A DNA stretch of 30,628 nucleotides from a virus. Of the stretch, positions 242 through 30,628 are shown piece by piece. The position numbers were made by a program, and so were the translations under genes. The notes under the pieces were generated by a model. It was not told the origin of the DNA, made no database searches, and was given only the letters and a program-made list of their open reading frames with translations. How positions within the stretch are numbered: the stretch's first letter is position 1; each line of letters starts with the position of its first letter. The stretch is taken from positions 1-30,628 of the IMG/VR virus record IMGVR_UViG_3300005524_000016; one strand, written 5' to 3'.

Positions 242-343
242 GGATTGCCCTCCGTTTGACGGGGGTCAGTCAGGCTCGACCCGTGCCGGAGAGCAACTGC
301 CAAGTCACTGGAATTTCGAGCATATCGGGAGCGCTGAAGCAGC

Positions 344-3079: not shown

Positions 3080-4611
3080 ACCGAGCGAAGTCCTTTACCG
3101 CGCCGTCGTTCCTCGATCGCGCGGTTGCGATCGTTGCCCCGCGGGCCGCGGTCAAGCGCCTGGTCGCGCGGCAAGCGTTCGCCGGCCTGGCGCGGCGCGC
3201 TTATGACGGCGCCGCCGCCGGCCGGCGCACCGACGGCTGGCATTCGACCGGCGCGTCCGCGGATGCGGAGATCGCGTCGGCCGGCGCGGTTCTGCGCAAC
3301 CGCATGCGCGACCTCGTGCGCAATAACCCGCACGCGGCGAAGGCCGTGAGCGCCTGGGTCAGCAACATCGTCGGCTCGGGTATCTGCCCGCGCGCGGCAA
3401 GCGGCGACGAGGCGCTCGACAAGAGGATCAACGATCTTTTCGCGGAATGGTCGAAGGTTTGCGACGCGGACGGCCGCAGCGACTTTCATGGGCTGACCAC
3501 GCTTGCGGTCTCCGGAATGGTCGAGGCGGGCGACATTTTCGCCCGACGCCGTATCCGCCGCGCAAGCGACGACCTGCCCGTGCCGCTGCAAATCCAGCTG
3601 AACGAGGCGGACCATCTCGACGAGTCGAAGATCGACGGCCGGCCGGACGGCAGCCGCACGATCCGCGGCATCGAATACGATCCGCTCGGCCGGCGCGTCG
3701 CCTATTGGCTGTTCCCGGATCATCCCGGCGACATCGCGGTGCCGTTGTCGCACAGCGTCGCGTCCGTTCGCGTTCCGGCGGACGGCGTGATCCATCTCTT
3801 CAAGCGCGACCGCGTGCAGCAGCGCGGCGTTCCCTGGGGCGCGCCGGTCATGCGCGCGCTACGCGATCTCGACGACTGGACCAACGCCGAGCTCGTCCGG
3901 AAGAAGACTGAGGCTTGCCTCGTCGGCATCGTGATGGGTGCGGAGGACGCCGATCAGGGCGTGGCGCCTTCGGTCGTGGACGCCGACGGCAAGACGATCG
4001 AGCAGTTCGAGCCGGGCTTGATCGCCTATGCACGCGGCGGAAAGGACATCAAGTTCAACCAGCCGGCAGCGAGCGCCGGCGTGAGCGAATGGCTCCGCGC
4101 GCAACTCCACATCATCGCAGCCGGCTTCCGCATCCCTTACGAGCTTCTCACCGGCGACTTGAGCCAAGTGAACTATTCCTCGATCCGCGCCGGGATCGTG
4201 GAATTCCGCCGCATCGTCGAAGCGATCCAGTGGCAGGTCGTCATTCCGGTCTTCTGCCAGCCGATCTGGAACTGGTTCACCGAGGCGGCATACATCGCCG
4301 GCCTTGTGCCCGCGCCGAGGATCGCGGTCACGTGGTCGCCGCCACGCTTCGAGTATCTGAACCCGCTCGATGACGCGCGCGCCGATCTCATGATGCTGCG
4401 CATGGGCGCCACATCGCTCCCGCGGGTCATCAGCCGGCAGGGCGAAGACCTGGACGACATCCTCGCCGAGATCGCCGCGACCAACGCCAAGCTCGACGCG
4501 CTCGGCATCATTCTCGACAGCGATCCGCGCAAGGTCACGCAACAAGGCCTCTATCAAAAGGACCCGGCGAACGAGAACGCGCCCAAGGCCGGAACGAAGA
4601 CGAACAACTGA
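3076..4611 (+). CDS. Phage portal protein, lambda family
   Basis: This 511-aa protein forms the dodecameric ring at one vertex of the head through which DNA enters and leaves, and it anchors the neck and tail. Family hallmarks are the N-terminal region with RMRDLVRNNPHAAKAVSAWV (about 76-95), a middle section with GIEYDPLGRRVAYWLF, and the C-terminal wing with IPYELLTGDLSQVNYSSIRA (about residues 353-372), which is the most conserved part of lambda-type portals. The length is typical. The start overlaps the preceding stop as ATGA, so the two are probably translationally coupled. The last 20 or so residues are polar and likely flexible. Nothing looks damaged. Confidence 0.96.
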   Translation: MNRAKSFTAPSFLDRAVAIVAPRAAVKRLVARQAFAGLARRAYDGAAAGRRTDGWHSTGASADAEIASAGAVLRNRMRDLVRNNPHAAKAVSAWVSNIVGSGICPRAASGDEALDKRINDLFAEWSKVCDADGRSDFHGLTTLAVSGMVEAGDIFARRRIRRASDDLPVPLQIQLNEADHLDESKIDGRPDGSRTIRGIEYDPLGRRVAYWLFPDHPGDIAVPLSHSVASVRVPADGVIHLFKRDRVQQRGVPWGAPVMRALRDLDDWTNAELVRKKTEACLVGIVMGAEDADQGVAPSVVDADGKTIEQFEPGLIAYARGGKDIKFNQPAASAGVSEWLRAQLHIIAAGFRIPYELLTGDLSQVNYSSIRAGIVEFRRIVEAIQWQVVIPVFCQPIWNWFTEAAYIAGLVPAPRIAVTWSPPRFEYLNPLDDARADLMMLRMGATSLPRVISRQGEDLDDILAEIAATNAKLDALGIILDSDPRKVTQQGLYQKDPANENAPKAGTKTNN

Positions 4612-4625
4612 ACAGCAGGTAGTTG

Positions 4626-6671
4626 ATGCCCGAAGCAGCCCTTCGGGAGCGCCGGCAGGCGCTCCCGATGCAGACCCGGTTTGCGCCGGTTTCCTCGATT
4701 GACGCGGAGGCGCGTACGGTCGATCTCGTGTGGACCACCGGCGTTGCGGTGCGCCGACGCCGCTACGATTGGGAGAGCGGACGGGTCCTCAACTACGACG
4801 AAATCCTCGTCGTATCGGAGAGCGCGGTCGATCTTTCGCGCCTGAACGCCGGTGCGGCCGTTCTAGACAGCCACGACACGTGGTCCACCCAATCGCAGGT
4901 GGCGGTGGTCGAGCGCGCGTCGATCGAGGCCGGCGAAGGCCGGGCGACCGTCCGCTTTCCGAAAGCCGGCGTCGACCAGGCCGCCGATCGCCTGTTCGCG
5001 CTCGTCGCCGATCGGATCGTCCGGAACGTGTCGGTCGGCTACTCGATCGACAAGGTCCGCATCGAGAAGTCCGAGCAGGCCGGCGAGGTCGAGAAGTGGT
5101 TCGTCGAGCGCTGGACCCCTTACGAGATCAGCTTCGTGACCATCGGCGCTGATCCCGGCGCGCAAGTCCGGTCGGCGCCGCCCGACCGCCTTTTCCCCTT
5201 CGAAGTTACGAACCGGGCGGAGCCCGGCCATCAGGAGAACCATGCCATGTCGAAGAAGGACGACGTGCCGGGCAACGCGCCGGCCGACAATCACGAGCAA
5301 CCCTCTACCGACCAGAACCGTTCCGTGAACTCGCCCGGCGAGGCGGCGTTCGATACCGATCAAGTTCGGGCCGAGGAGCAGGAGCGCATCACAACCATCA
5401 CGGGCCTGGTCGAGCAGTTCAAGCTCGAGCGCCCGCTCGCCGACGATCTGGTAAAGCGGAACGTCTCGATCACCGATGCACGCAAGGTCATCCTCGATAA
5501 GCTCGCGGAACGGGACGCGCGCGGCGCCGGCCACTCGCAGATCTCCATGCCGGCAGGCGGTCTCGACGCTACCGTCACTCGCCGCGAAGCGATTGCCGAA
5601 GCGATCCTTCATCGCGCGCAGCCGCAGGCCTTTCAGATGACCGACCGCGCGCGCGAATACCGCGGCATGCGCCTCATTGACGTGGCGCGCGATTGTCTTG
5701 AGGCGGCCGGCGTCCGCACGCGCGGCCTGACGCCGAACGAGATCGCCTATCAGGCGACCCGCGCCGCCGGCATGCAGGGAACGTCAGACTTCCCGTTGAT
5801 CCTGGCTGCGGTGGCGGGCAAGCGCCTTCGCCAGGCCTATGCGATGACGCCGCGCACGTTCCAGCAATGGGCGCGCGGGATCACGGCGACCGATTTCAAG
5901 CCGATGTATCCGACGCAGATCGGCAGCTTCCCCGCTCTCAAGGCAGTGATGGAAGGGGCCGAGTTCAGCTACGGCTCGATCGCGGAAGGCCGCGAGTCCT
6001 ATCAGCTCGCGACCTACGGGCGCATCGTCCCGCTGACGCGGCAGGCGATCATCAACGATGATCTTCGCGCCTTCGACCGCGCTCTCGGCTCCGCCGGACA
6101 GCGCGCGGCCGATCTGGAATCGGCCATCGTCTACAACGTGCTTCTTGCCAACGCGAACCTCGCCGATGGGATTGCGCTCTTCCACGCAAACCACGGCAAC
6201 GTCGGCACGGCCGCCGTGATCGGCGAGACCGCGCTGTCGGAAGCCTGGGAGAAGATGACCCAGCAGAAGGACCTCGGCGACGGAACGGGCGCCGATAAGG
6301 AATACATCGACGCGCGCCCGCGGTTCATCCTCGTCCCGCCCGGCCAGCGGTCGATCGAGGCGCGCAAGATGATCGCCGCGACCACGCCGGCGAAGGCCTC
6401 CGACGTGAATGCCTTCACGGGATCACTGACGATCGTCGAAGAGCCGCGGCTGTTCAGGACCGGCGGTCCGCAGCCCTGGTACCTCGCCGCCGACCCGAAC
6501 CTCGTCGATACGGTCGAGTACGCCCATCTCGAAGGGCAGACCGAACCGTTCATCGATCAGCGGGCGGGCTTCGAGGTCGATGGCGTCGAGATCAAGGTGC
6601 GGCACGACTTCGCCGCCAAGGCGCTCGACTTCCGCGGCCTCTTCTACAACGCCGGCGTCAACCCGGCGTAA
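4626..6671 (+). CDS. Prohead protease / major capsid protein fusion (gpT-like capsid)
   Basis: This 681-aa protein joins a maturation protease to the shell protein. Residues 1 to about 190 form a prohead protease with the expected His-Ser-Glu pattern: H83 in VLDSHD, S136 in RNVSVGYS and E167 in PYEISFVTIGADPGA. Residues from about 208 on are a scaffold-like charged stretch and then a Mu gpT-like capsid domain, with ARGITATDFKPMYPTQIG, SYQLATYGRIVPLTRQAIIN and LFHANHGN. The ATG at 4626 is preferred to the adjacent TTG because AGG at 4616-4618 is better spaced for it. Fusions of this type are common in alphaproteobacterial phages. An in-frame internal ATG at 5247 with its own ribosome-binding site could yield the capsid part alone. 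Confidence 0.92.
   Translation: MPEAALRERRQALPMQTRFAPVSSIDAEARTVDLVWTTGVAVRRRRYDWESGRVLNYDEILVVSESAVDLSRLNAGAAVLDSHDTWSTQSQVAVVERASIEAGEGRATVRFPKAGVDQAADRLFALVADRIVRNVSVGYSIDKVRIEKSEQAGEVEKWFVERWTPYEISFVTIGADPGAQVRSAPPDRLFPFEVTNRAEPGHQENHAMSKKDDVPGNAPADNHEQPSTDQNRSVNSPGEAAFDTDQVRAEEQERITTITGLVEQFKLERPLADDLVKRNVSITDARKVILDKLAERDARGAGHSQISMPAGGLDATVTRREAIAEAILHRAQPQAFQMTDRAREYRGMRLIDVARDCLEAAGVRTRGLTPNEIAYQATRAAGMQGTSDFPLILAAVAGKRLRQAYAMTPRTFQQWARGITATDFKPMYPTQIGSFPALKAVMEGAEFSYGSIAEGRESYQLATYGRIVPLTRQAIINDDLRAFDRALGSAGQRAADLESAIVYNVLLANANLADGIALFHANHGNVGTAAVIGETALSEAWEKMTQQKDLGDGTGADKEYIDARPRFILVPPGQRSIEARKMIAATTPAKASDVNAFTGSLTIVEEPRLFRTGGPQPWYLAADPNLVDTVEYAHLEGQTEPFIDQRAGFEVDGVEIKVRHDFAAKALDFRGLFYNAGVNPA
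5233..5249 (+). promoter_or_regulatory. Internal ribosome-binding site and in-frame ATG for a capsid-only product
   Basis: AGGAG at 5233-5237 stands nine bases before an in-frame ATG at 5247, residue 208 of the protease-capsid fusion. The protein that would start here begins MSKKDDVPGNAP and contains the whole scaffold-like and capsid region (474 aa) without the protease. The motif is as good as the start signals of the separate genes around it. Use of this start is inferred; only the signal is visible. Confidence 0.5.
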
Positions 6672-6708
6672 CGGGGCACTGATCGCAGCGCAAGAGCCAA
6701 CCGGAACG

Positions 6709-6730
6709 GGCCGCCGCCGAGCGGCCTTTT
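6709..6730 (+). terminator. Terminator-like hairpin between capsid and DUF2190 genes
   Basis: GGCCGC at 6709-6714 pairs with GCGGCC at 6721-6726 around a six-base loop, and TTTT follows. It lies inside the late operon, so it is more likely to attenuate transcription or protect the 3' end of the capsid message than to stop all transcription. A similar hairpin with the same downstream leader occurs at 23454-23476. Confidence 0.5.
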
Positions 6731-6749
6731 CCGTTTCAGGAGACACTTC

Positions 6750-7100
6750 ATGAAAAACTACGTCCAGGCAGGCGACACGATCACGGTCGCCGCGCCATAT
6801 GACCGAACCGCCGGCCAGGGCGCGCAGGTGGGTCAGCTTTTCGGCGTCTGTGTCGGCGACGCTTTGAGCGGCGCCGACGTGGCGCTGAAGACCACCGGCG
6901 TGTTCGATCTCACCAAGATCGGCTCGCAGGCCTGGACGGTCGGGCAGCTGATCTATTGGGACAATACCAACAAGCGCTGCACCAACGTCGCCACCGGCAA
7001 TCTGCTGATCGGTGCGGCTGTCGCTGCGGTTGACAATGCAGCCGGCAGCACGACCGGCCGCGTCCGACTCAACGGCGCGGCGCGCGCCAACGAGGCCTAA
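6750..7100 (+). CDS. DUF2190 family protein, probable capsid decoration protein
   Basis: This 116-aa protein begins MKNYVQAGDTITVAAPYDRT and ends in a small, alanine- and glycine-rich region with GAAVAAVDNAAGSTTGRVRL. That is the DUF2190 pattern: an N-terminal segment with an ITVxAP motif, a GxxVGxLFGV core and a repeated beta structure. Members lie just after the capsid gene in many phages and are thought to bind to the outside of the shell as trimers that stabilise it. The start has a strong site, AGGAG at 6738-6742, seven bases before the ATG. The role is inferred from family and position. Confidence 0.88.
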   Translation: MKNYVQAGDTITVAAPYDRTAGQGAQVGQLFGVCVGDALSGADVALKTTGVFDLTKIGSQAWTVGQLIYWDNTNKRCTNVATGNLLIGAAVAAVDNAAGSTTGRVRLNGAARANEA

Positions 7101-7105
7101 CCCTG

Positions 7106-7426
7106 ATGCAGGCCGCCTTCGGCGCGGCGATCGACGCGATCTTCCGCGACGCCAATGTCGCGGAGGATGCGCGTTGGCGGACGGGCGGCACCGGCGGCGG
7201 TCTTGCCGTCCGGGTCATCCGCAAATCGCCGGATGAGGTGGTCGGGTTCGGAAGCAGCCGCGCCGTCATGGCGACCGTCTTGATCGACGTGCGAGCCTCT
7301 GAAATCGCATCGCCTGCATCGGGCGATACCGTCGAGATCGCCGGCGATCTGTTCGAGATCATCGGCACGCCCGTGCGCGACAGCCTCGGTCTCGTGTGGA
7401 CGTGCGAAGCAGGTCGTCGGAACTAA
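7106..7426 (+). CDS. Probable head-tail joining (neck) protein
   Basis: This 106-aa protein follows the decoration protein and, but for the inserted DUF262 gene, would be followed at once by the tail-completion genes. It has GLAVRVIRKSPDEVVGFGSS in the first half and, near the end, DTVEIAGDLFEIIGTPVRDS. Small beta-rich proteins with an 'xGDxFEIxGxPxxD' ending at this position are head-tail joining or connector proteins of the lambda gpFII kind. The start at 7106 has GAGG at 7092-7095 upstream. Family membership is suggested by pattern and order only. The stop lies 12 bases from the end of the convergent DUF262 gene. Confidence 0.7.
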   Translation: MQAAFGAAIDAIFRDANVAEDARWRTGGTGGGLAVRVIRKSPDEVVGFGSSRAVMATVLIDVRASEIASPASGDTVEIAGDLFEIIGTPVRDSLGLVWTCEAGRRN

Positions 7427-7438
7427 CATTCGCTGCAG

Positions 7439-9040
7439 TCAAACACCGAGGTACTTATTCGCCTGCTCGGCCAAAAGCTTGCGACGCTGGGCCAAAAACT
7501 CCTTATAGCGCGATACACGCCATAGATCGTGATTCAGCGGAATACACTGCTTCTCCAACTCAGATTCTGGGACGTTTAGCCGATCAAGATATGTGGCCGG
7601 TTCTTCGGTGGATACATTCAAATTCGTCCTTGCACTGAGCACCGCATAGTTCGCGAACGTATTTATGTCAGCGGGCCGAAGCTCCTTCCGCTTGTTCAGC
7701 AGAGCTCTTGGAAAGAAATGATGAACCTGAAGTGGCGCGCCATGCCCGATCACCGTCCCATCCAGCGGGCTGTCGGTATTTTGCCAGTCCTTCGCGCTAC
7801 AGTCCCGGAGCATCGAAAGGAACAACGACATGATGGGACCGCTCAAGCGGCCTGTCTCGAAATCGTCTGCGCGCAAACGTCGAAGGGAGCGTTTAGTGGC
7901 GGTCCATAGATGATTTACGGACGGCGCACTTTCAATTGATCGGAGAACCTTGTCGAGTTGCGTCTCGACCGATCCACTGAAGTATCCATGTACGGAAGCA
8001 AGAAGCAGCCATCTTCGCGCTAAACGCCTGTCTTCGATGGACCAGTTATTGCCGTGTGCGAGAACGACGACCAAGGGAATCAGGGAATTGAAAGATGGAA
8101 TAAGCGAAGCAGATGTCCATCGCACGGTGCCTGTAAGAAATTCGACAAGCTTGCCAATGGCGCGTTCAGTCCGCTCCCATGACTTCCTGATCTCGCTCGG
8201 CTTGGCTGTTTCCCAGAATTGCTCGGGGTCCGGAATCCGAAACCGGCCTGAATGTACCGCTAGTAAGCACTGGACAAGGAATGGCATTGTGAACCGGAAA
8301 TCCTGCCAACGGGTTTGCGCCTGACGGACCTCCTTCGAGACCAACCCAGGAACGTGGATCGCAAGTTCAGCGATGCTGAGATCGCTACGTCGGAGCTTTC
8401 GGCCGGTCGAGTTAAATCGAATAAAGAGCTCCGTAGCGAGTTTATAGTCGTCCGTTTCGAACTCAGTGACGCCGACCAAATAGTCCCGGATTCGGGTCAA
8501 GGCCGATATGTCTTGTCGAATAATTTCTTCGTGTTCGGGCTTGAACCGCTCGCTGGCTTTGATGGCGTTCAGCCGCTCGGTGAGACTGAAGTCCTCTGAG
8601 AGGACTTCCGCCACCGGGATGCGCCAAGGGTCATCTCGTTCGTTCTTGCCGCGCCAGTAAAATGTTTCGTCGCCGTCAGCCTCCCTCTGCGGCCAAACAT
8701 AGAACATCAACGGGTACTCTTCGTCTCCATCCCGAAGGTGGGCGAGAGCTGTCAATCGTTGTTGTCCGTCAAGCAAGTACCCGTAAAAGCCATCAAGGCG
8801 GACGCCGCGTTTGAGCCGCTTCTTATCAAATGCCTTCGCATCAACGGCGGTTGTGGCCTTCCAGACTAACATGTGCCCGATGGGTAATCCCCGGTACAGG
8901 GAATCGATCAGGAGTTTGATCGCCTTTCTGGTCCAGACGAAGTCTCGCTGTATCTCTGGAAGAACCAATTGCTGTCGATCCACCAGCTCAAGGAGCTTCC
9001 CAATGGATCTCGTGACATTGCTCACACTCGATGTTGGCAT
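7439..9040 (-). CDS. DUF262 / HNH-type (GmrSD-like) restriction protein
   Basis: This 533-aa leftward gene stands alone between head-tail genes of the opposite strand. The N-terminal DUF262 domain shows all its signatures: LVLPEIQRDFVW (25-36), a GLPIGHMLVWK segment, DGQQRLTAL (91-99) and LFIRFNSTGRKLRRSDL (205-221). The C-terminal part has VHHFFPRALLNKRK (439-452) and then NTFANYAVLSARTNLN, which is the DUF1524-like HNH nuclease pattern. In GmrSD this pair makes a nucleotide-dependent type IV endonuclease that attacks modified phage DNA; SspE is a related effector. The start at 9040 has AGGA six bases upstream. Base composition is visibly less GC-rich than the flanking phage genes, which suggests recent acquisition. 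A role in blocking other phages is inferred. Confidence 0.9.
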   Translation of the reverse strand: MPTSSVSNVTRSIGKLLELVDRQQLVLPEIQRDFVWTRKAIKLLIDSLYRGLPIGHMLVWKATTAVDAKAFDKKRLKRGVRLDGFYGYLLDGQQRLTALAHLRDGDEEYPLMFYVWPQREADGDETFYWRGKNERDDPWRIPVAEVLSEDFSLTERLNAIKASERFKPEHEEIIRQDISALTRIRDYLVGVTEFETDDYKLATELFIRFNSTGRKLRRSDLSIAELAIHVPGLVSKEVRQAQTRWQDFRFTMPFLVQCLLAVHSGRFRIPDPEQFWETAKPSEIRKSWERTERAIGKLVEFLTGTVRWTSASLIPSFNSLIPLVVVLAHGNNWSIEDRRLARRWLLLASVHGYFSGSVETQLDKVLRSIESAPSVNHLWTATKRSLRRLRADDFETGRLSGPIMSLFLSMLRDCSAKDWQNTDSPLDGTVIGHGAPLQVHHFFPRALLNKRKELRPADINTFANYAVLSARTNLNVSTEEPATYLDRLNVPESELEKQCIPLNHDLWRVSRYKEFLAQRRKLLAEQANKYLGV

Positions 9041-9262
9041 CTACGATCCTGCACGTTGACGAGCGGCGCCCTTGCTCGCGCCACTCTCTGAAGCCGGCCG
9101 GGTTGCTATTAACGCCAAAAGCGCCCCTACGCAGCTCTATTCATTGCACAATTCCAAATGATGGGGAACTTGGCTTCTCACGGATGAGGCATCAGTAGCT
9201 CAAGGCTGCGCCGCTTGCTGAACGCGCATCCTGCCAGTCTAGGGGGCCTTGAAGGATCAGTC
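9041..9262. other. Right flank of the DUF262 insertion, no gene seen
   Basis: This 222-base stretch separates the start of the leftward DUF262 gene from the ribosome-binding site (AAGGA at 9252-9256) of the next tail gene. It should hold the promoter of the DUF262 gene, but I could not find a pair of boxes good enough to name. Its composition shifts from mixed to GC-rich near 9200, which may mark the insertion edge. Confidence 0.4.
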
Positions 9263-9904
9263 ATGCGCTTTAGCTTCAAGGCCGACGATCTTAGCGCCGT
9301 CCTCAAGCGCGCCTATGATGACGGCGAGCGCGCCGTTTCCGAAGCCATGAATGAGGTGCAAGCAGGCCTTCGGGACGAGCTTCGCGGCCAAGTGGTTTCC
9401 GCGGGAATGGGCCAGCGGCTCGCCAAGACTTGGCGCGGCAAGCGGTTCCCCGAAAGCGGTGCGAGCATCAATTCAGTGGCCTACGTCTGGTCGCGCGCTC
9501 CCGACATCGTGGACGCGTTCGAGCGCGGCGTTCCGATCGTCGCGAGGAACAGACGCTTCCTTGCGGTGCCGACGCGCGACGCGGGCGTGAGCCACACGAC
9601 GGTCAAGAACAAGCGGCTGACGCCCGCGATCTGGGAGGCCGAAACCGGCGTGAAGCTCAGGTTCGTTCCCCGCGGCGGGCACGCGCTGCTCGTGACCGAT
9701 GCCCACTACGCCCGCCAACCCGCGCGGTGGAGGCGCCGCAAGTCGTTCAAGCCGATCCGAACGCCTTTGACCGGCAGTCGTAAGGTGCTCGTGATCTTCG
9801 TCCTGGTCCCGATGGTCAATCCCGGCACGCGGCTCGATGTCGAAGGCGCCGGCAATCGCTGGGCCGATCGCGTCGCCAGCATCATCGCGTCTCATTGGAG
9901 ATAG
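9263..9904 (+). CDS. DUF6441 family phage protein (neck / tail completion region)
   Basis: This 213-aa protein starts MRFSFKADDLSAVLKRAYDD and contains GLRDELRGQVVSAGMGQRLAKTWRG, then PAIWEAETGVKLRFVPRGGHALLV and a basic ARQPARWRRRKSFKPIRTP stretch. I recognise it as the DUF6441 family, found at this place in Rhizobiales prophages and gene-transfer-agent relatives. By position it may be the equivalent of a gpZ-like or tail-completion protein that joins the tail tube to the neck. The ATG at 9263 is preferred to one further upstream because AAGGA lies six bases before it. It is separated from its expected upstream partner only by the DUF262 insertion. Confidence 0.8.
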   Translation: MRFSFKADDLSAVLKRAYDDGERAVSEAMNEVQAGLRDELRGQVVSAGMGQRLAKTWRGKRFPESGASINSVAYVWSRAPDIVDAFERGVPIVARNRRFLAVPTRDAGVSHTTVKNKRLTPAIWEAETGVKLRFVPRGGHALLVTDAHYARQPARWRRRKSFKPIRTPLTGSRKVLVIFVLVPMVNPGTRLDVEGAGNRWADRVASIIASHWR

Positions 9905-13000: not shown

Positions 13001-16000
13001 CCGACCGCAACGTCTCGATCCGCATCGGCGTCACCGGAAAGGATGACGTCCGACGCGCGTTCGAAGAAGTCGGCAGGGCCGGTGAGGCAGCGTTCAACAA
13101 GACCGCAGCCGCCATCGATGCCGCCGGCGCGGCGACCGATCGCGAGACGCAACGTCTCCAGCGCCTGGCGCAGGCTGCGCGGCAGGCGGCGAGCGCCGAC
13201 GAGGCGCAGCGCAAGTTCAATGCTTTTATGGGCATCGGGACTTCGAGCGCCGGTTCCGCCCGCGAGTCGGCGCGGGTGTTCGAGGAAGCGGCGAAGGCGA
13301 CCGAAGATCTCGAAAGGCGGACCAGGGCGCTGCGCGCGCAGATCGATCCGCTCGGCGCCGCGCAGGCGAAGCTCAACGCCGAGATCGCGGAAGCGAACGC
13401 CCTCTTCAAGGCAGGCGCGATCTCGGCGCAGGAGCAGGCCGCCGCGCATCAGCTTGCGCGAAACCGCTTCGACGCCACGGCGAAGGCGCTCAAGGGCGTA
13501 GGCGACGGCTCGCAGCTTGCGAGCTATCAGATCGTCAATCTCGGCTATCAGCTGAACGATGTGGTCGTGGGCCTGGCGAGCGGGCAACGGCCGCTTACCG
13601 TGCTGGCGCAGCAAGGCACTCAGATCGCGCAGATTTTCGCCGGCTCCGGTATCGGCGTCGGCGGCGTCCTGAAGGAACTTGGCCGGACTGTGCTCGGGCT
13701 CGTTTCGCCGACAACCTTGCTGGTTGGCGGGCTTGCGGCCGTGGGCGGGACCGCGCTCTACGCCTACAACAGCTACATCACTGCGCAGAAGGAGCTTCAG
13801 GTCGCGACCGCCGGCGTCGGTCGCGCCGCGGGCGCCACCATCGACCAGCTCAATCGGATCGCCGACAACGCTTCGACGGCCGGGCGCATCTCGGTCGCCG
13901 CCGCCCGCGACATGGAGGTGGCCTTCCTCCGCACGGGTCGGATCGGGGTCGATCAATTCGGCGATCTGATCGCGGTCGCGAAAAACTACGCCGCGACCAC
14001 GGGCCAGGACATCGAGGCGGCGACCAAGGAGCTTGCCGAGGCCTTCGCCGATCCGGCCAAGGGCGTCGATCTCTTGAACGCGAAGGTTGGCGGCTATGAC
14101 GACCGGACGCGGCTTCTCATCAAGACGCTCGCGGCGCAGAATGATCTGACCGCCGCCCAAAAGGTCCTCTTCGACAATCTCAAGCCATCGCTGATCGATG
14201 CCGCCCAGACGACGACGGCGCTCGGCCGCGCGTGGGATTTCGTCGCCCGCAATGCTTCCAACGCAGTGGATGCAATCGGCCGCGCGATCGACCGAGCGAC
14301 CGATCCGACGCTGCAACAGCGGCTTGACGACCTCCTGAAGGAGCGCGCCAACGCCACCACGCTGGGCGGGCAGTATGTTCCCGGCGTGATGGGCATGCTG
14401 GCTTTCGTGCCGGCGCGCCCGCTTTCGGCCATCGACGCCGATATCGCGAGCGTCAAGCGGCAGATTGCCGAGATCGAGCGGAAGGCCGCCGATGCCAAGG
14501 CCGACGCCCTCGCCGCGCGTACCTCGACGCTCGCCGGCGAGGTCGCACGCAACGTCACGCCGGGCTTCAACGAGCTTCAGACGCTCAAAGAGCAGCAGGC
14601 GAAGCTCGCCGCGGCCCTGAACGATCCGCTCGCCCGGCAGAAGGTCGCCGACCTGAGGCAGGTCGAGGCCGCCTATGACGCGGTGACGCGCGCTGTCACG
14701 AGCTGGCTCGATCCCGCCGAAAGGGCCCGCCGCCTCGACGAGCTCGAAATCCAGGCGCTCAACGCCAAGACGCCGGCGCAGAAGGCGGCTATTGCCGAGG
14801 AGCGCCGGCGCCTCGAGCTCGCCGGCCAGGCGATCACGACTGGCACGGCGGAAGCCGAGATCACGCGCGCCGGCACGAAGGCGCGAGCCGAAGCAACGCA
14901 CGCCATCGCCGAGCAATCGCTCGCGCTGACGGTGAACGCGCGCGCTTCGCTTGATGTGGCGAACGCCTATCTCAAGGGCGCCGCCGCCGCTGAGGTCGCC
15001 GAAGCGAAGCGAAAGGCGCTGACCGAAGCGATCCGCAACGGCGTCGATGTCGAGATGCGGATGCGGCAAGTCCTTGCCGACAAGATCGCGCAGACCGCAG
15101 TCCAATCTGCGAAGTCGGCGAGCGACATCGCCGCCCAGGCCGCCGCGCAGAAGCGGCTCAACGACGCCATCGCCTCGGGTTCGCTCACCGTCGAACAGGC
15201 GCGCCGGCAAATGCAGGTCGAGCAGACGCTTCGGCCTCTGCTGGTCGCGCAATCGCTTGCGGAGGGCGAGGCAAAGGCCACGCTCACGCGGATTATCGAT
15301 GCGCTGCGCGCGGCCTATGGTCGCCTGAACTCCGAGGAGTCGCGCAACGCCGCGCTCGGTCAGATCGCGACGCAGAGGAGCCAGATCGAGCTCCTTCAAA
15401 AGCAGATCGAGCTCGTCGGCACGAACGAGTCGCTCGCCGCGATCGAGATCGCGCAGCTTCAGGCGAAGCAGCAGCTGATCCAGCAAGGCATCGATCTCGG
15501 CTCGAAGGAAGCGCAGGTCATCATCGCCAACGCCGGCGCGATCGAGCGTCTGAACCAGCAGCTTCAACTCGCGAAGGCATCGCAGCAAGAGCTCATCAGC
15601 CTCACCGACACGACGTTCAACCGATTCGCCGACCTGATCGCGCAAGGGAAGACGGACTGGAAGTCGTGGGCGGACGCCGGCCGCGCGGCGATCCTCGACA
15701 TCAACCGCGAACTCCTGAAGCTCGCGCTCCTCAATCCGCTCAAGAACCTTCTCTTCGGAACGAACCTGCCCACCATATCGTCGGTCGGCGGTCTCTTGGG
15801 ATCACTCCTCAGGGGGTTCGGTGTCGGACACGCCGGGGGCATGGCCGAACAACTTGCCGGCACCCGCACGGCGCCGTTGATGCTGTTCCGCTTCGCGCCG
15901 CGCCTGCACGAAGGCGCGTTCCTGTCTCCGGACGAAGTGCCGGCAATCCTCCAGCGCGGCGAACGCGTGCTCAATCGCGAGGAGACTAGGGCCTACAACC

Positions 16001-24328: not shown

Positions 24329-24556
24329 ATGAACTGGCTCACGGTCCTGTCGGCCCTCGCCCGCATCGTTCTCGCCATCCTCGAAATGGCGCGCGAGCGG
24401 CGGGCGAAGGGCGCCGGCAGGGCCGAAGCCATCGCGGAGTCCGCCACCCATGCGCTCGATCTCATCCGCAAGGCGCGCGATGCGCGCCGCGCTGCTGCCG
24501 ATGCCGCTGCTGATCCTGGCCGGCTGCGCGACGACGACGGCTTCCGTCGGGACTGA
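24329..24556 (+). CDS. Possible inner-membrane spanin (Rz-like)
   Basis: This 75-aa protein has a single N-terminal hydrophobic helix, WLTVLSALARIVLAILEMA (about 3-21), followed by a strongly charged, helical stretch, RERRAKGAGRAEAIAESATH. An inner-membrane anchor with a periplasmic helix, overlapped in another frame by a lipoprotein gene, is the arrangement of Rz/Rz1 spanins, which fuse inner and outer membranes in the last step of lysis. It is shorter than most i-spanins. The gene starts one base after the holin-like stop, so it may be coupled to it. The assignment is from topology and gene overlap. Confidence 0.6.
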   Translation: MNWLTVLSALARIVLAILEMARERRAKGAGRAEAIAESATHALDLIRKARDARRAAADAAADPGRLRDDDGFRRD

Positions 24557-24767
24557 CGCGGTCGCGTGCTCGGCGTTCGAGCCGATCCGGTGGTCGGAAC
24601 GGGATACGCAAGAGACGATCCGGCAGGTGAAGGAGCCCAATGCGGCTTGGAAGGCCGTCTGCCTCCAGCGTTCCGAGCGCCGCGACTCGGCGGGACACCC
24701 AATCGCTCACCCAGAAAAAAGCGCTCCCAGTTCGATTTGGACCATGCAATCAGTGACGCGTAGGTGA
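24480..24767 (+). CDS. Possible outer-membrane lipoprotein spanin (Rz1-like)
   Basis: This 95-aa protein begins with a signal peptide that ends in a clear lipobox, LLILAGC with C16 as the lipidated residue. The mature part has CSAFEPIRWSERDTQETIRQ and PNAAWKAVC. It starts inside the preceding gene in the +1 frame and overlaps it by 77 bases, as Rz1 does with Rz. Relatives I recall end soon after the NAAWKAVC part; here the frame runs on about 30 more residues, rich in Ser, Arg and Pro, into DNA that looks like the border of the accessory region. The end may therefore have been replaced. AAGG lies six to seven bases before the start. Confidence 0.65.
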   Translation: MRAALLPMPLLILAGCATTTASVGTDAVACSAFEPIRWSERDTQETIRQVKEPNAAWKAVCLQRSERRDSAGHPIAHPEKSAPSSIWTMQSVTRR

Positions 24768-24853
24768 TTCGGCGTGCCGAGGCCGCGATCGGCCCTGACC
24801 TGTGCAGTCTCGGAGATTCCTCAACGAATAGACGTTTACTGCCGGCGGAACTC

Positions 24854-24861
24854 TATATATT
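24854..24861 (+). promoter_or_regulatory. Possible -10 region upstream of the methyltransferase gene
   Basis: TATATATT stands out in a GC-rich setting about 30 bases before the methyltransferase start. TTTACT at 24835-24840 could be a poor -35 box at 15 bases distance. The promoter is weakly supported. Confidence 0.35.
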
Positions 24862-24890
24862 GTATGTTTAGCTGGGGAGTTGTGAGCTGC

Positions 24891-25967
24891 ATGAGCGATT
24901 GGGGGACTATGTACAGCGTCGTGATCGAGCCGGGGCCCAAGGCACGCCGATGGGCCTCCAGGTCGATTTATGAGACGGAGCTGGGCGCAGCGTTTTGTGG
25001 CGACTCTCTCAAAGTGCTGCGGAGCAAGCGCCTTCAGCAACACAAAAAGGAAGTTCAGCTGGTCTTCACCTCTCCGCCGTTTCCGCTCAACACCAAGAAG
25101 AAGTATGGGAACCTTCAAGGGGAGGAATACATCGAATGGTTCTCGCAGTTCGCGCCGCTGCTCCGGGATTTCGTCGCCCCTAATGGTTCCATCGTTGTGG
25201 AAATCGGCAACGCGTGGGAACCGGGTCGCCCGGTAATGTCCACGCTCGTACTTCGGGCGCTCCTTCGGTTCCTCGAAGCAGGTCGGCTCAATTTGTGTCA
25301 GGAGTTCATTTGGTACAACCCCGCTCGGTTACCTTCACCTGTGCAATGGGTGAACGTTGAGCGGATCAGGGTCAAGGATGCGTTTACACGCATTTGGTGG
25401 ATGTCGCCATCCGATCGTCCAAAAGCAGATAACCGGAGAGTCCTTCGTGAATATAGCGCGAGCATGAAGAAGCTGATTGAGACCGGCAAATACAATGCAG
25501 GTCCGCGGCCTTCTGAACATCACATTGGCAAGAGCAGTTTCAAGACAAACAACAACGGTGCGATTCCGCCAAATGTCCTCGACGCGGACGATGCGCCATC
25601 CCTAAGCACCTTGCTAAAGGGCACCAACACGCACTCCAACGATCAGTATCAGTTGTTTTGCCGAGATCGTGGCATTCCCTTGCATCCAGCGCGAATGCCT
25701 GCAGATCTCGTCGAATTCTTCATCCGATTCTTGTCGGACGAGGGAGACCTAGTACTTGATCCATTTGCCGGCAGCAATACGACCGGTGCGGTCGCTGAAA
25801 AACTTGGCCGGCGATGGATATCATGCGAGGCAAATTGGGAATATGCGTCTTCTTCGATCGCACGCTTCACGCCCGAGAAAATTACGGAAACCTGTGACGA
25901 CCTGCGAATTTCCGCGGTTCCCACGCGGAGCAGAAAACGCCTCGGGGCTACTTCCTCGTTCTCTTGA
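24891..25967 (+). CDS. DNA methyltransferase, beta-class, probably cytosine-N4-specific
   Basis: This 358-aa protein has the catalytic motif IV (TSPPFPL, about 60-66) before the AdoMet-binding motif I (LDPFAGSNTTG, about 289-299), which is the beta-class order. SPPF rather than DPPY favours methylation of cytosine N4. Between them lies the target-recognition region with WYNPARLPSPVQWVNVERIR (141-160), a conserved stretch of this family, and HPARMP (265-270), part of motif X. The start is uncertain: ATGs at 24864, 24891 and 24909 are all in frame; 24891 has GGGGAG eleven bases upstream. It is less GC-rich than the phage genes. It converges on the leftward ATPase operon and overlaps its last gene by 20 bases. 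Confidence 0.92.
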   Translation: MSDWGTMYSVVIEPGPKARRWASRSIYETELGAAFCGDSLKVLRSKRLQQHKKEVQLVFTSPPFPLNTKKKYGNLQGEEYIEWFSQFAPLLRDFVAPNGSIVVEIGNAWEPGRPVMSTLVLRALLRFLEAGRLNLCQEFIWYNPARLPSPVQWVNVERIRVKDAFTRIWWMSPSDRPKADNRRVLREYSASMKKLIETGKYNAGPRPSEHHIGKSSFKTNNNGAIPPNVLDADDAPSLSTLLKGTNTHSNDQYQLFCRDRGIPLHPARMPADLVEFFIRFLSDEGDLVLDPFAGSNTTGAVAEKLGRRWISCEANWEYASSSIARFTPEKITETCDDLRISAVPTRSRKRLGATSSFS

Positions 25968-26631
25968 TCGCCTCAAATTGATGCGAAAATCGTTTCTCGA
26001 TCGCTTCTAAAAACTCGCGAAGCTTGAGGAGACTTTCTTTTGAAATCGCTTCCTCGCCACCGGAGACGCCGCGTCTGAAGCTGTCTGATCCGGTCTCGTT
26101 CAGCCATGCGAGAGCGTTCTCTATTGCGGTTCGAGTTGCCTTTCGCCGATCCTCGACGTGCTGGGCATCGTTACTTGTTAGGCCAAGAAATGAAGCCGCT
26201 CCAAGCCACATACGTGGCTCGTTAGGATCACTGCAGTACTTCCTAAAAACGGGATGGCGATAAAGGGGCGCGACAGCGTCATAGATTGGCTGCGGCGATC
26301 GATGGGACTTCTCACCCTGGCCTTTCATACCACCGAGACGATCAGCCTCAGAACGACCTATATCGGTTAGGCGATAATGATTTGCACGCGTCTTTTCAAT
26401 CCACCCTCGTCTCAGGGGATTATCCTTCTTTGTGGTGCCCATAATTTCCATCATGACCCGCTTGTGGTCGGGATAGAGATCTTCATATCCCCGGCAACCG
26501 AAACGGTTCGGGTTGCGCTTCCAAGTCGAAACTGTGAGATCCCATTCGGTGAACTCCTTCATTCCGGCCTGATCGAGGTCACGAGCACCGAACAAAATCT
26601 CCTGAGCGGCGGTTAGCCGTTCATGCGGCAT
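25948..26631 (-). CDS. Uncharacterised protein with probable winged-helix domain, third gene of ATPase operon
   Basis: This 227-aa protein overlaps the ATPase gene end by 11 bases, so the two are co-translated. I do not recognise the family. The N-terminal half (about 1-105) reads as a winged helix: MPHERLTAAQEILFG, a helix with TEWDLTVSTWKRNPNRFGCR, then MMEIMGTTKKDNPLRRGWIE and NHYRLTDIGRSEADRL, which is the strand and helix pattern of wing and last helix. The C-terminal half is helical, with TAIENALAWLNETG and KLREFLEAIEKRFSHQFEAI. It shows no nuclease motif. The ATG at 26631 is used here; GTG and TTG starts lie up to 15 bases upstream. A DNA-binding or targeting subunit is a fair guess. 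Confidence 0.82.
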   Translation of the reverse strand: MPHERLTAAQEILFGARDLDQAGMKEFTEWDLTVSTWKRNPNRFGCRGYEDLYPDHKRVMMEIMGTTKKDNPLRRGWIEKTRANHYRLTDIGRSEADRLGGMKGQGEKSHRSPQPIYDAVAPLYRHPVFRKYCSDPNEPRMWLGAASFLGLTSNDAQHVEDRRKATRTAIENALAWLNETGSDSFRRGVSGGEEAISKESLLKLREFLEAIEKRFSHQFEAIKRTRK

Positions 26632-29065
26632 CTTGGACAACAGCACTCTCCGCTCTGCTCAACAGTTGATCGCTCAGATCCCAAGCCGCATCGATGAAAT
26701 CGGCGCATTCGATTTCTGCAAATGCGGCAAGCTGAATGAACTCGAACTCAGTTACGGTTCGTCCCCTCAAGGCCTGCCGGACATGCAGACGCTTGAGCAC
26801 GTCAAAGCACTTGAGCGCCACGAAATGCATAAAGTTCTTGGAAGCAATGCTTCCAACCCCGGACGGCCCGCCGCGACTTCGACGAACCCTCATCGATTCC
26901 TTGCTTCTAGGATTAATCCAAACAACGTTTGGGAATAGGGGGTCCTCGATGATGGTCGGCAGCTCCTCGCCACCGGGCAATGTCCGCTGCTCTTCGGGAA
27001 AATCCTCCATGCCGGGAGCTTGCTCGCCGCACAGAAGAATTTCCGGGATATCACTTCCGCGGGCACCCTCAGTGTCCGGGGCGGGCACCCGTTCCGAGCC
27101 GATCTGGATCACGGTGGCGCGTTGTTGGTGTGGGCCCGCACCAAATCTGACTCGAACGGTTGCCTGGCCCTCCTTGAAGCCAGCCGTGAAACGGCCGTGG
27201 CGCCCGATCAGCCCCATACCAGGTTCGTCGATCGCCCCGTCTATAAGAAGGTCATCTCTGGGACCATTCGGCGTCTGAAATGTGATCGCCAGTTTGACTC
27301 GCTGCCCTTGCAGAAGGACTTCCGTCGGCACATCGATAGTGACCTCGGTCGCAGCTACGATTTCGCAGTTGATCTTGTTTGAGAACACAGTGCCGTCGGC
27401 GGTCTCCAGCCAGATCTCACCGCGACCAGTAACATCTCCCGATATTCGGTCGCCTTCGACCAAGGACGCGATCGGTGCTGATGAACCAAGGCGAAGGTCG
27501 GTAGCTCTCACCGGCTTTGACGAACCGTCAGGTTGGCGCTCGATGCATTTGAAACGGAGCGGGACGGACGTGCCCTGCGCGAGTGACACGATCGTCCGGC
27601 CCGGTTCAAGAACAATCTCGTCAATTCGCTCTCCGAACTCGGACCCTCGCCGTTTCCTCTTTTTGCCCTCGCCATCTTTTCCAGTTGGTCCAGAGCCCTG
27701 TTCTTCATCATCGGCACCCTCGCCCGATGTGTCCGGATCAAGATAGTGTCGCATGAGGTCGCGTATACTTTGGAGTGCCGCTTTGGCTTGCTCACGGTCC
27801 CGTGGCCTGTTCTCCGCCATCATTGCGCGATGCAGGTCTTCCGCTAGCTCTTTGACCTTTTGGCGTGCCCATTCCATCAGCGCTCGAACAAGCGGGGTAT
27901 CGGACAAATGGATTCGCTCTGCCCCGGAGAGGTGCTCGCCAACCAGTGAAGCGCAACGGAGCTCCCCATAGATGAAGCTTACCGACGTGACGAGGACACC
28001 CAGCGAGTGCAGTGGCCAATTCGCGACGTTGTTGCGACTATTCCAGACCCGAATGACATTCCTCGCCTTCGTCTCTTCCGACATTTGGAGCTGTCGGGAA
28101 GAGGTGTGAAGCCTAAGAAATCTTGGCCCATCGAGCCCTGCCACCATGTCAACCGGATCGCCCGTCTCAGGATCGGGGAGGATATCGGGGATCTGATGTT
28201 CAATCGGTTTTTCAAAGCCGGGATACGGCTCCAGCGCAATCGGCTTGATTGGCGAGGCAGTTACGAGTTCTCCGTCCACGACAACCCATACTTCGCAAGT
28301 CTCAACGCTCATCGCAGTCTGACCATGACTCGCGATGATCTCCGGGACGACCTCCTCAGCCAACCTCTTCACCTTCCGCTTTTGGCGTCCCTCCCAATCA
28401 GCGACGCGGCTAAGGAGCACCCCTGTGAAGGCTTTTCGCTTCTGAAATGCAGCGAGGGCATTCGGAGGAAGGTTCTCTCTTGAAATGCCACACTGCGCTA
28501 GGAAGGCATCGAAGCACGCCTCGGTATCAGGTGCGTCTATTGCCTTCACAATCACGCCGTTCTCTCGGGCGAACCCTGGTTTGTACCGATCCGTGGGGCG
28601 GTTGTTCTTGAAGCCCATCCGGGTGCGCTTGCCTTCAAAGCAGGACTCAAGGAATGAGAATTCGGAAGCCCCGCGGACCATGAATGCCTTTCCGCCATTG
28701 CCATGGCCGGCCTCAATATCGTCAGAAAGCTCGCTTCGCCCCGCGGTTCGGCTCGACCACGTCGTCCAACCGTCGAAGTCGGCCAAACGTGCGCCGGCGA
28801 AATCAATCACGGCGAGCCTGCGGTCGTCCGTATCGGCGACGACCACGATCTGCCGCACGGTGCGATCCGTGATTCCGAGCCGAGAGTATTGGTCTTTCGC
28901 GTTCTTTATGAGCTCTGGAAGTCCATCCCTGACACCGCGAAAACGGCTGGTCAGCTGGTCCAGTGTGTGCGCTGCGTCCATTGGAATCTGGTCGGGAAAG
29001 AGAAAGTCCGTCGCGGCGCCAACGGGTTTAGAAGCTGGTCCAATCTTAGAGCTTGAAGCGTGCAT
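26621..29065 (-). CDS. GHKL (MutL/MORC-like) ATPase with Ig-like C-terminal region
   Basis: This 814-aa protein carries the GHKL ATPase motifs: N box ELIKNAKD (E51, N55), a motif I segment VIDFAGARL around D88-G91, and the glycine loop EAGHGNGGKAF (118-128). The order and spacing fit the MutL/MORC branch rather than a histidine kinase. A second S5-like part with the expected lysine region follows to about 440. A charged linker with KKRKRRG (468-474) leads to two beta-rich segments, about 480-570 and 575-655, the second with GLIGRHGRFTAGFKEGQATV, an Ig-like (Big) pattern. A helical end closes the protein. The start at 29065 has AAGGGA upstream. No nuclease domain is visible. Confidence 0.88.
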   Translation of the reverse strand: MHASSSKIGPASKPVGAATDFLFPDQIPMDAAHTLDQLTSRFRGVRDGLPELIKNAKDQYSRLGITDRTVRQIVVVADTDDRRLAVIDFAGARLADFDGWTTWSSRTAGRSELSDDIEAGHGNGGKAFMVRGASEFSFLESCFEGKRTRMGFKNNRPTDRYKPGFARENGVIVKAIDAPDTEACFDAFLAQCGISRENLPPNALAAFQKRKAFTGVLLSRVADWEGRQKRKVKRLAEEVVPEIIASHGQTAMSVETCEVWVVVDGELVTASPIKPIALEPYPGFEKPIEHQIPDILPDPETGDPVDMVAGLDGPRFLRLHTSSRQLQMSEETKARNVIRVWNSRNNVANWPLHSLGVLVTSVSFIYGELRCASLVGEHLSGAERIHLSDTPLVRALMEWARQKVKELAEDLHRAMMAENRPRDREQAKAALQSIRDLMRHYLDPDTSGEGADDEEQGSGPTGKDGEGKKRKRRGSEFGERIDEIVLEPGRTIVSLAQGTSVPLRFKCIERQPDGSSKPVRATDLRLGSSAPIASLVEGDRISGDVTGRGEIWLETADGTVFSNKINCEIVAATEVTIDVPTEVLLQGQRVKLAITFQTPNGPRDDLLIDGAIDEPGMGLIGRHGRFTAGFKEGQATVRVRFGAGPHQQRATVIQIGSERVPAPDTEGARGSDIPEILLCGEQAPGMEDFPEEQRTLPGGEELPTIIEDPLFPNVVWINPRSKESMRVRRSRGGPSGVGSIASKNFMHFVALKCFDVLKRLHVRQALRGRTVTEFEFIQLAAFAEIECADFIDAAWDLSDQLLSRAESAVVQDAA

Positions 29066-29300
29066 CGGATTTTCCCTTGGGCGATGCGAAGCGGTTCTCG
29101 ACCTCGTTGACGGCATCCTTCAGCGCTCTGATGATTTTACGGACTTCAGCGTCCTCAAACTCATAAATCTGTCGGTTTGAGAGATTGCCGATCCGGCTGA
29201 TCGCTTCGAGCGCCTTGTTGGTCCTGTTCTCGGCGAGCGTCCGAAACTTTTCGCGCTTGCTCGCCCCGGCCTTCGGCTGCGTCTTGGCTTCTGCGGTCAC
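29046..29300 (-). CDS. Small helical protein, first gene of ATPase operon
   Basis: This 84-aa protein starts at a GTG at 29300, with GAGGA five bases upstream, and overlaps the ATPase start by 20 bases. A TTG at 29312 is a less likely start. It is basic at the N-terminus and then helical: SKREKFRTLAENRTNKALEA and ISRIGNLSNRQIYEF, followed by EVRKIIRALKDAVNEVENRF. I have an impression of this NRTNKAL-IGNLSN pattern in small genes beside restriction-modification genes, but I cannot name a family. It has no enzyme motif; a structural or regulatory partner of the ATPase seems likely. Confidence 0.8.
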   Translation of the reverse strand: MTAEAKTQPKAGASKREKFRTLAENRTNKALEAISRIGNLSNRQIYEFEDAEVRKIIRALKDAVNEVENRFASPKGKSDARFKL

Positions 29301-29359
29301 TATTTTCCTCAATATTCGACGACTATTTTGAGGGAACGCACGTTTTGCTTGTGTTCTTG

Positions 29360-29388
29360 AATATCTGGGACCGCAGTCAGTTTGTCAA
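29360..29388 (-). promoter_or_regulatory. Promoter of the leftward ATPase operon
   Basis: On the minus strand a perfect TTGACA (29388-29383) stands 17 bases from GATATT (29365-29360), which matches four of six -10 positions. Transcription would begin near 29353, about 50 bases before the GTG start. An inverted repeat lies immediately upstream. Confidence 0.7.
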
Positions 29389-29396
29389 TATTCGCT

Positions 29397-29416
29397 CGGA
29401 TACGTGAACGTATCCG
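29397..29416. promoter_or_regulatory. Inverted repeat upstream of ATPase operon promoter
   Basis: CGGATACGT and ACGTATCCG form a perfect nine-base inverted repeat around GA. It begins nine bases upstream of the -35 box, a position suited to an activator or an upstream operator. Confidence 0.65.
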
Positions 29417-29420
29417 CACG

Positions 29421-29437
29421 CATATTCGATGAATATG
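29421..29437. promoter_or_regulatory. ATATTC-type inverted repeat, candidate operator
   Basis: CATATTC and GAATATG pair around GAT. The half-site ATATTCG also occurs at 29388-29394, overlapping the -35 box, and at 29312-29318, near the start of the first gene. The repeats suggest one regulator with several sites. Confidence 0.55.
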
Positions 29438-29636
29438 TCGAAGACAGTCACTATCAGTGATCAGTTGCGCCTTTAGAAGCCTTTGGTTTCATTATCGTTT
29501 TGAGAACGGACACAGCTGCGCTCGATCCTCATCGGTTCCGACTCGGGCGATTGCCTGTTCGGCCAGTGTTCACCCGCGAGGGCGCCAGTCACCGGTTGGC
29601 CAGCGGTTTGCGGACGTATTGCGGAGTTGACATTCG
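29438..29636. other. Non-coding stretch between operon control region and hairpin
   Basis: I see no gene in these 199 bases. Frames that cross it are short or belong to the shadow of the integrase gene. It may be the border between the accessory operon and DNA that flanks the tRNA-derived site. Confidence 0.4.
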
Positions 29637-29664
29637 AACGCCCCGGACTCGGGTCCGGGGCGTT
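29637..29664. terminator. Strong GC-rich hairpin beside the tRNA fragment
   Basis: AACGCCCCGGA at 29637-29647 pairs perfectly with TCCGGGGCGTT at 29654-29664 around a six-base loop. It stands about 30 bases beyond the CCA end of the tRNA fragment, where the terminator of a leftward tRNA gene would be. The following T run is short in both directions. Confidence 0.6.
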
Positions 29665-29695
29665 TCCGTAAGAACTTGATCTTGCTTATGAATTT

Positions 29696-29742
29696 TGGTT
29701 GCGGGGGTAGGATTTGAACCTACGACCTTCAGGTTATGAGCC
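29696..29742 (-). other. 3' fragment of tRNA-Met(CAU), attachment-site core
   Basis: On the minus strand these 47 bases give the 3' part of a methionine, probably initiator, tRNA: from GGCTCATAACC in the anticodon arm, through the T arm with GGTTCAAATCC, to the acceptor strand and CCA. The anticodon CAT is within it. Beyond 29742 the sequence no longer matches a tRNA, so the 5' half is missing and the piece cannot be a working tRNA. With an integrase gene 170 bases away, it is best read as the identity segment of an att site. Confidence 0.85.
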
Positions 29743-29827
29743 GGTTGTAGCACTATATCTTGTGTGTTGATTTCCCGAACTGTTTTCGGCACAGTTGCAT
29801 TAAGCCTTTGGCATAACGATGAAATCA

Positions 29828-29858
29828 GACGCAATCGGGCGACATCCGACGCAACCGG
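29828..29858 (+). repeat. Pair of direct repeats between att core and integrase
   Basis: GACGCAATCGG (29828-29838) and GACGCAACCGG (29848-29858) match at 10 of 11 positions and are 20 bases apart, two helical turns. They are placed where arm-type binding sites of an integrase would be expected. Confidence 0.55.
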
Positions 29859-29912
29859 AATACCAGATTTAGCCACTAGGCGTGTTGACTTATTGTTGAC
29901 TCGGGGGGCCGC

Positions 29913-30628
29913 ATGTCCGCTTCCAATTCGCAACGTCTGACCGACGCCATGGTCCGCAAGGCGCTTCCCGCTGCGCGCGGGTCGGCGCTGCTTTGGGACT
30001 CGAAAGTCAAGGGCTTCTGCCTTCGCGTTTCGCCGGGCGGCGGCAAGAGCTTCATGCTCGATTACCGCGCCGGCGGACGGCAACGGCGGATCACCATCGG
30101 CTCGTATCCCGATTGGTCCGTCGCCGCCGCGCGCGAAGCCGCAAAGGCGATGAAGCGCGAAGTCGATCTCGGCCGCGATCCCATGGGCGAACGGCATGAG
30201 GAGCGCGCCGCGCCGACCGTTGCCGACCTTTGGGAACGCTATCGCGTCGAGCATCTTCCGACGAAGGCGGCGCGGTCGCAGAAGGACGAGACGATGATGT
30301 GGGAGCAAATCGTGCTTCCGCGCTTCGGCAAGATGAAGGTGGCGGCGGTCGCGCACGAGGACATCGATGCGCTCCATCGCGACATCACCAACATCCGCGG
30401 CACGCCGATCCGCGCGAACCGGACGGTCGAGGTGCTGCGCAAAGCCTTCAACCTTTCGATCCGATGGAAGTGGCGCACCGACAATCCGGCCTCGGGCGTG
30501 CGGCGCAACCCGGAGGAGCGGCGTAACCGCTATCTCAACAAGGTCGAGATCGCGGCGCTTGCCCGGGCGCTTCAGGACCATTCCGAGCCGGTGTCGGCGA
30601 ACGCGATCAAGCTCCTCATGCTGACCGG
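29913..30628 (+). CDS. int: Tyrosine recombinase / integrase, N-terminal part (3' end outside window)
   Basis: The frame from the ATG at 29913 is open to the right edge, 238 codons. It begins MSASNSQRLTDAMVRKALPA and shows the DUF4102-type arm-binding domain: LLWDSKVKGFCLRVSPGGGK, SFMLDYRAGGRQRRITIGSY and DWSVAAAREAAKAMKREVDL, then DPMGERHEE. The core-binding SAM-like domain follows, with VADLWERYRVEHLPTKAARS and VEVLRKAFNLSIRWKW. The window ends at AIKLLMLTG, just where the first catalytic arginine is expected, so the R-H-R-Y residues are not seen. A P4-type integrase of this kind usually recombines at the 3' end of tRNA genes, which fits the tRNA-Met fragment beside it. GGGGGG lies upstream of the start. 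Confidence 0.93.
   Translation, partial: MSASNSQRLTDAMVRKALPAARGSALLWDSKVKGFCLRVSPGGGKSFMLDYRAGGRQRRITIGSYPDWSVAAAREAAKAMKREVDLGRDPMGERHEERAAPTVADLWERYRVEHLPTKAARSQKDETMMWEQIVLPRFGKMKVAAVAHEDIDALHRDITNIRGTPIRANRTVEVLRKAFNLSIRWKWRTDNPASGVRRNPEERRNRYLNKVEIAALARALQDHSEPVSANAIKLLMLT

Follow-up and report, generated by a model that had tools for sequence, protein, structure and literature searches.

A tRNA-Met fragment beside an integrase gene in a virus contig as the probable seam of a prophage and a satellite in tandem

The DNA analyzed here is the full length (30,628 bp) of a virus record in IMG/VR (the window) and contains one tRNA core. With a probability of roughly 0.87, judged by comparison with related sequences, this core is an att scar left inside a tandem array that occupies a single tRNA-Met(CAT) gene and in which a prophage adjoins a second element, most likely a capsid-forming satellite. 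An earlier note on this DNA had listed a tandem of two elements at a single tRNA gene among its possible readings, and this option was supported by the kinship of the integrase, by mismatched arm repeats and by relatives with defined boundaries. The core is the following feature:

29696-29742, minus strand: 3' part of tRNA-Met(CAT), the att core common to both elements, identical at 47 of 47 positions to the intact tRNA-Met of G004 and of G005

The match to these intact genes confirmed that a genuine tRNA-Met 3' fragment lies beside int, the gap between core and integrase being approximately 170 bp. The 47-nt fragment starts with the final two bases on the 5' side of the anticodon stem and extends to the CCA, in line with the described cut at the anticodon stem. 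Likewise, the 5' half was absent from the 886 bases right of the core, up to the window end, as had been claimed. ARAGORN detected no complete tRNA in the window, and the Rfam tRNA model gave a partial, subthreshold match at 29707-29755 (20.6 bits versus 29). A 24-base piece of the core, with up to 3 mismatches allowed, had a single occurrence in the window and none in 100 shuffles.

The DNA left of the core is best read, from its gene content and alignments, as the tRNA-proximal end of an RcC-like siphoprophage. Its features are as follows:

344-24028, plus strand: structural module of the left prophage with terS, terL, portal, capsid, tail genes and endolysin (Pfam, RcDormio-type homologs, G004/G005 alignments)
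7439-9040, opposite (minus) strand: GmrSD-type gene (GmrSD_N, Pfam) interrupting the structural module
24774-29312, both strands: accessory cassette of the prophage, in a block (24475-29663) that is 95.4% identical inside prophage G004
24774-25967, plus strand: cassette gene for an N6/N4 DNA methylase
26621-29116, minus strand: cassette gene for an 831-aa protein
29046-29312, minus strand: cassette ORF of 88 aa
29608-29630, plus strand: arm-type direct repeat of the left (prophage) element, TTGCGGACGTA/TTGCGGAGTTG, matching the integrase side of G004 at 21 of 22 positions
29637-29664, strand not set: terminator-like hairpin in the prophage right end, not host DNA (fold z; sequence present in related prophage right ends)

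The late region encodes, in the order of RcC-like siphophages, a GpA-type terminase, a lambda-type portal, a fused protease-capsid protein and a GTA-like TIM-barrel tail protein. The closest relatives in the phage collection were RcC-cluster Rhodobacter phages (terL, 69%; TIM-barrel tail protein, about 52%), and the gene order is like that given for RcDormio in the portion of its description used here (PMC8601537). Unlike RcDormio-type phages, the window prophage carries additional cargo, and the group to which it belongs uses tRNA-Met as its integration site. Two accessory insertions, the GmrSD_N gene and the cassette, depart from the RcC plan. The GmrSD_N (DUF262-type) gene sits between the head-tail and the tail genes, and the stretch 7439-9040 gave no alignment with the relatives G004 and G005. 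The prophages also carry their own tRNA-Met(CAT) about 2 kb left of terL, besides the occupied host tRNA-Met (15492-15566 in L094, which belongs to G004; 14781-14855 and 63936-64009 in G005).

A scan of IMG/VR with the 831-aa protein returned one contig, G004 (50,513 bp), whose protein is 98% identical. The protein itself matched no family in Pfam, PADLOC or NCBIfam; it may carry a GHKL-ATPase-like motif. At the DNA level, G004 and the window are 94.2% identical over 1-7410 and 95.4% identical over 24475-29663, while the middle is a different tail region. The G004 prophage is bounded by a 3' core (2289-2336) with an integrase gene (3198-4523) on one side and by an intact tRNA-Met (50394-50470) on the other. 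The cassette lies between that integrase and the intact tRNA-Met, and because it is inside the prophage body, it appears to be prophage cargo. The host island that the earlier note had considered was rejected on the same ground. Given these bounds, the left flank of the window corresponds to the prophage end that touches the intact tRNA in G004.

The hairpin had been described as fitting a tRNA terminator in host DNA past the tRNA end. A hairpin is indeed present (fold z = -3.85 for the minus-strand stretch 29630-29700), but a clear U run in the tRNA direction is absent when the sequence is read. A scan with a short degenerate pattern drawn from the left-element end retrieved eight stretches on eight other contigs, revealing that the hairpin sequence is common to the right ends of related prophages. 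Four stretches abut an intact tRNA-Met (L160, L161, L162, which is G004, and L166, apparently identical to L161), three adjoin a 3' fragment with another element beyond it (L159, which is G005, L163 and L164), and one ends within the core (L165). Owing to this recurrence at related prophage ends, a host terminator was rejected, and the hairpin appears to belong to the prophage end.

Two features of the second element are visible right of the core:

29883-29904, plus strand: arm-type direct repeat of the right element, TGTTGACTTAT/TGTTGACTCGG, matching the right end of satellite G002e1 at 20 of 22 positions
29913-30628, plus strand: partial tyrosine integrase, 238 aa visible (Pfam Arm-DNA-bind_3, Phage_int_M)

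The integrase gene runs off the window end after 716 bp. Its visible product is 96 to 97% identical in amino acids to the integrases of L003 (G002) and L002 (G001) and 43% identical to the G004 integrase. The phage collection held no close relative (best match, 34%). In a tree of 66 integrases, with satellite or prophage labels assigned by hand from element contents, it was placed inside a clade of 18 labelled satellites (SH-aLRT 99), and the three labelled prophage integrases fell on a separate branch. The distance of approximately 170 bp between core and integrase fits the satellite type (156 to 184 bp at 60% identity or more) and not the G004/G005-like prophage type (252 to 862 bp). Furthermore, at the DNA level, window positions 29696-30628 share 92.8% identity with satellite G002e1 and 92.5% with satellite G001, and this similarity begins at the tRNA end, 29696. 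The reading as a tandem is supported by this starting point on the right and by the G004-like prophage on the left, which has another integrase and ends at an intact tRNA-Met. The right integrase and its arms are seen in the window, while the integrase of the left element, outside the window, is known from G004 alone.

The gene content of the satellites comes from relatives. In G002, two elements of about 17 kb follow each other without a break, each with a terminase, portal and capsid, and the array ends in an intact tRNA-Met. By PHROGs, G002e1 and the complete G018 element carry primase, terminase, portal, and capsid or decoration genes, and no tail family was detected among the 10 proteins scanned in each, a selection from the output of a simple ORF caller; for the G018 capsid, the identification came from tblastn. 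Among 21 distinct relatives with at least 60% integrase identity and at least about 9 kb downstream, 18 have a terminase within the downstream stretch, and none was found in the stretch available for the other three (L010, L022 and L035). In prophages G004 and G005, the terminase begins about 14 to 19 kb from the integrase start. The satellite proteins share 42% (terminase), 37% (portal) and 34% (capsid) identity with their counterparts in the window prophage, so the two heads are distant relatives. The right element, of which the window includes the integrase alone, is most likely a satellite of 15 to 19 kb with its own terminase, portal and capsid and without a tail, and it would, like these relatives, be complete. 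The coupling of integrase kind and element kind is imperfect: L139 has a satellite-type terminase (93%) and a prophage-like integrase (56%). At L129 and L130, whose integrases are 60 to 61% identical, an intact tRNA-Met lies left of the integrase.

In most complete elements, the two ends share a doubled repeat of about 11 bp. We compared the ends of 15 elements, chosen by hand as those with both ends in available sequence. In 11 of them, the best 22-base match between an element's own ends was 18 to 22, above every shuffled pair (150 pairs, single-base shuffling; mean 14.2, maximum 17). The other four did not exceed the shuffle maximum (G029, 17; G005p2, 16; G021, 16; G030, 14). When the two sides of the window core were matched to each other, the value was 16 of 22, which is at chance level. 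The left arm also matched prophage 1 of G005 (19/22). At ten other contig junctions, the sides matched each other at only 14 to 16 positions, and both elements are visible at six of these (G002, G005, L010, G004, L138 and L153).

These data bear on whether the fragment is the attP of one unintegrated or circular phage with its own integrase at 29913, as the earlier note had also proposed. RcDormio-like phages have their structural genes before the rest of the genome, late genes, attP, int and early genes would be a possible circular order, and the contig itself shows no host DNA. However, the integrase and arms of the near-identical prophage G004 are different, the arms on the two sides of the window core do not match, and the window integrase nests among satellites. 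We therefore rejected a single attP on the G004 integrase and the mismatched arms, and regard such a phage as very improbable.

The same arms could in principle belong to one hybrid, recombined at the core, with a satellite-type integrase and a prophage body. Hybrids do exist, since G021 is bounded as a single element and yet has mismatched arms (16/22), and L139 offers a comparable pairing of integrase and terminase. A swap would, however, leave noncognate arms, which are likely poor for excision, and tandem junctions, which are common, explain the picture without it; it is thus a highly improbable account of the window. The G021 locus L107, from Oceaniovalibus, has different arm types at its two ends and may be a fusion of two former neighbours.

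The tandem junction in the window has counterparts elsewhere. Among the 30 genomes searched, the core was found in 28, and 12 had at least two copies on the same strand of the same contig, several of them 15 to 19 kb apart. Several multicore arrays have an intact tRNA-Met at the right end; an intact tRNA stands at the far end of the array in G002, G004 and G005. The opposite order, with a satellite on the left and a prophage-type integrase on the right, was detected on five contigs (G004, L135, L136, L138 and L153). All five have the satellite arm type TGTTGACTC left of the core (20 to 22 of 22), and satellite head genes are visible on the left in three (G004, L138 and L153). From these comparisons, the neighbourhood of these prophage and satellite kinds appears to recur in other metagenomes.

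The window is the sole contig with the prophage on the left and the satellite on the right among those examined. We tried 29 satellite-type loci, chosen by hand for a core left of the integrase, of which L142 was too short. In none of the 28 scored loci was the prophage arm type found left of the satellite-type integrase at 19 of 22 or better, and one (L021) has another known arm type there. IMG/VR proviruses seem to be trimmed at host borders, several loci beginning at the integrase, and this trimming biases the share of prophages with a left-hand satellite upwards.

An assembly chimera, joining a prophage end and a satellite of the same sample across the shared core of about 50 bp, would account for an order present on this contig alone and for the separate contexts that both sides have elsewhere. 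Against it, five contigs have the same element kinds side by side in the reverse order, the arrays of G002 and G005 are unbroken, and sequencing reads are usually longer than a repeat of about 50 bp. We consider a chimera scarcely probable.

Further arrangements were observed at tRNA-Met cores. In G025, one core-integrase pair is oriented opposite to the other cores. Left of the satellite in L002, a large ORF (7806-9536; serine recombinase by Pfam) runs into the tRNA 3' core, and another large ORF in L106 (reverse complement, 717-2444), also left of the satellite and running into the core, resembles it by the start only; these ORFs may represent a further kind of element at the site. L154 (4,886 bp), with two cores 4.6 kb apart and a partial integrase, looks like a very small element at the same site.

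The tandem could have arisen by repeated use of one site. A crossover in the 3' half of a tRNA gene restores the gene with the attP copy, so each arrival can reuse the site, leaving one 3' copy between neighbours. Such accretion involves a shared att core, and the 47-bp core of the window is identical to the intact gene of its relatives. The siphoprophage would have integrated at tRNA-Met via its own tyrosine integrase, encoded outside the window, and the tRNA would have been restored by the 3'-end copy carried on the prophage attP. The prophage right end, which bears the methylase cassette as well as the arm repeats and the hairpin, would then adjoin an intact tRNA. A second element, with another integrase, would next have entered this restored gene through the identical 47-bp core, so that the 5' half would lie at the far end of this newcomer and the 3' end would persist as a scar separating the two elements. 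Alternatively, integration at the internal core of an older element would give the same local picture; since this is also possible, element order does not prove age. Each integrase would read its own arm repeats, making the elements separately excisable despite the identical core. An intact tRNA probably lies beyond the right element, and both this order of arrival and any helper relation are inferred.

Stacking at a shared att site is like the tandem accretion of ICEs and genomic islands as outlined in the sources consulted, except that those elements are conjugative or mobilizable, while here a phage and a satellite are combined. PICI/PICI tandems, two satellites at one att site, are described at fis and tRNA-Ile2 in the parts of PMC10111431 considered here. 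The elements at tRNA-Met resemble them in the shared att site, the related att copies between elements and the doubled arm-like attP motif; they differ in that the fis and tRNA-Ile2 tandems are satellite/satellite only, while prophages and satellites share tRNA-Met. The same parts of that paper present a PICI/prophage tandem at one site as a hypothesis, which needs prophages using that site. No prophage/satellite tandem at one tRNA was found in the literature searched, parts of papers whose scope did not extend to the main satellite catalogue.

The complete relatives are like the cf-PICIs as described in the passages of PMC10803314 considered here, with an integrase, primase, own terminase, portal and capsid, no tail genes and a size of approximately 15 to 17 kb. 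Unlike the cf-PICIs of the hosts listed there, they sit in alphaproteobacterial genomes, and the likeness is known from their genes, the window showing the integrase alone. One bounded satellite of this type is carried by Pseudooceanicola nanhaiensis DSM 18065. The list of main cf-PICI hosts in those passages lacks alphaproteobacteria, which does not establish their absence in print.

Satellites need helpers, and how they meet the right helper in one cell is rarely visible. A prophage and a satellite abutting recurrently on the same attB form a natural setting for helper choice, for co-inheritance and for separation at excision by the arm sites. The window prophage may serve as tail donor to the satellite. 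Tentatively, and with considerable doubt, a tail-less capsid-forming satellite lineage and an RcC-like alphaproteobacterial prophage lineage might have converged on the same tRNA-Met core and might regularly lie side by side as satellite and tail donor, in either order, and be separately excisable through different arms on identical cores. Inside a 'phage' contig, a tRNA scar next to an integrase can mark the seam of two elements, and such contigs should therefore be split.
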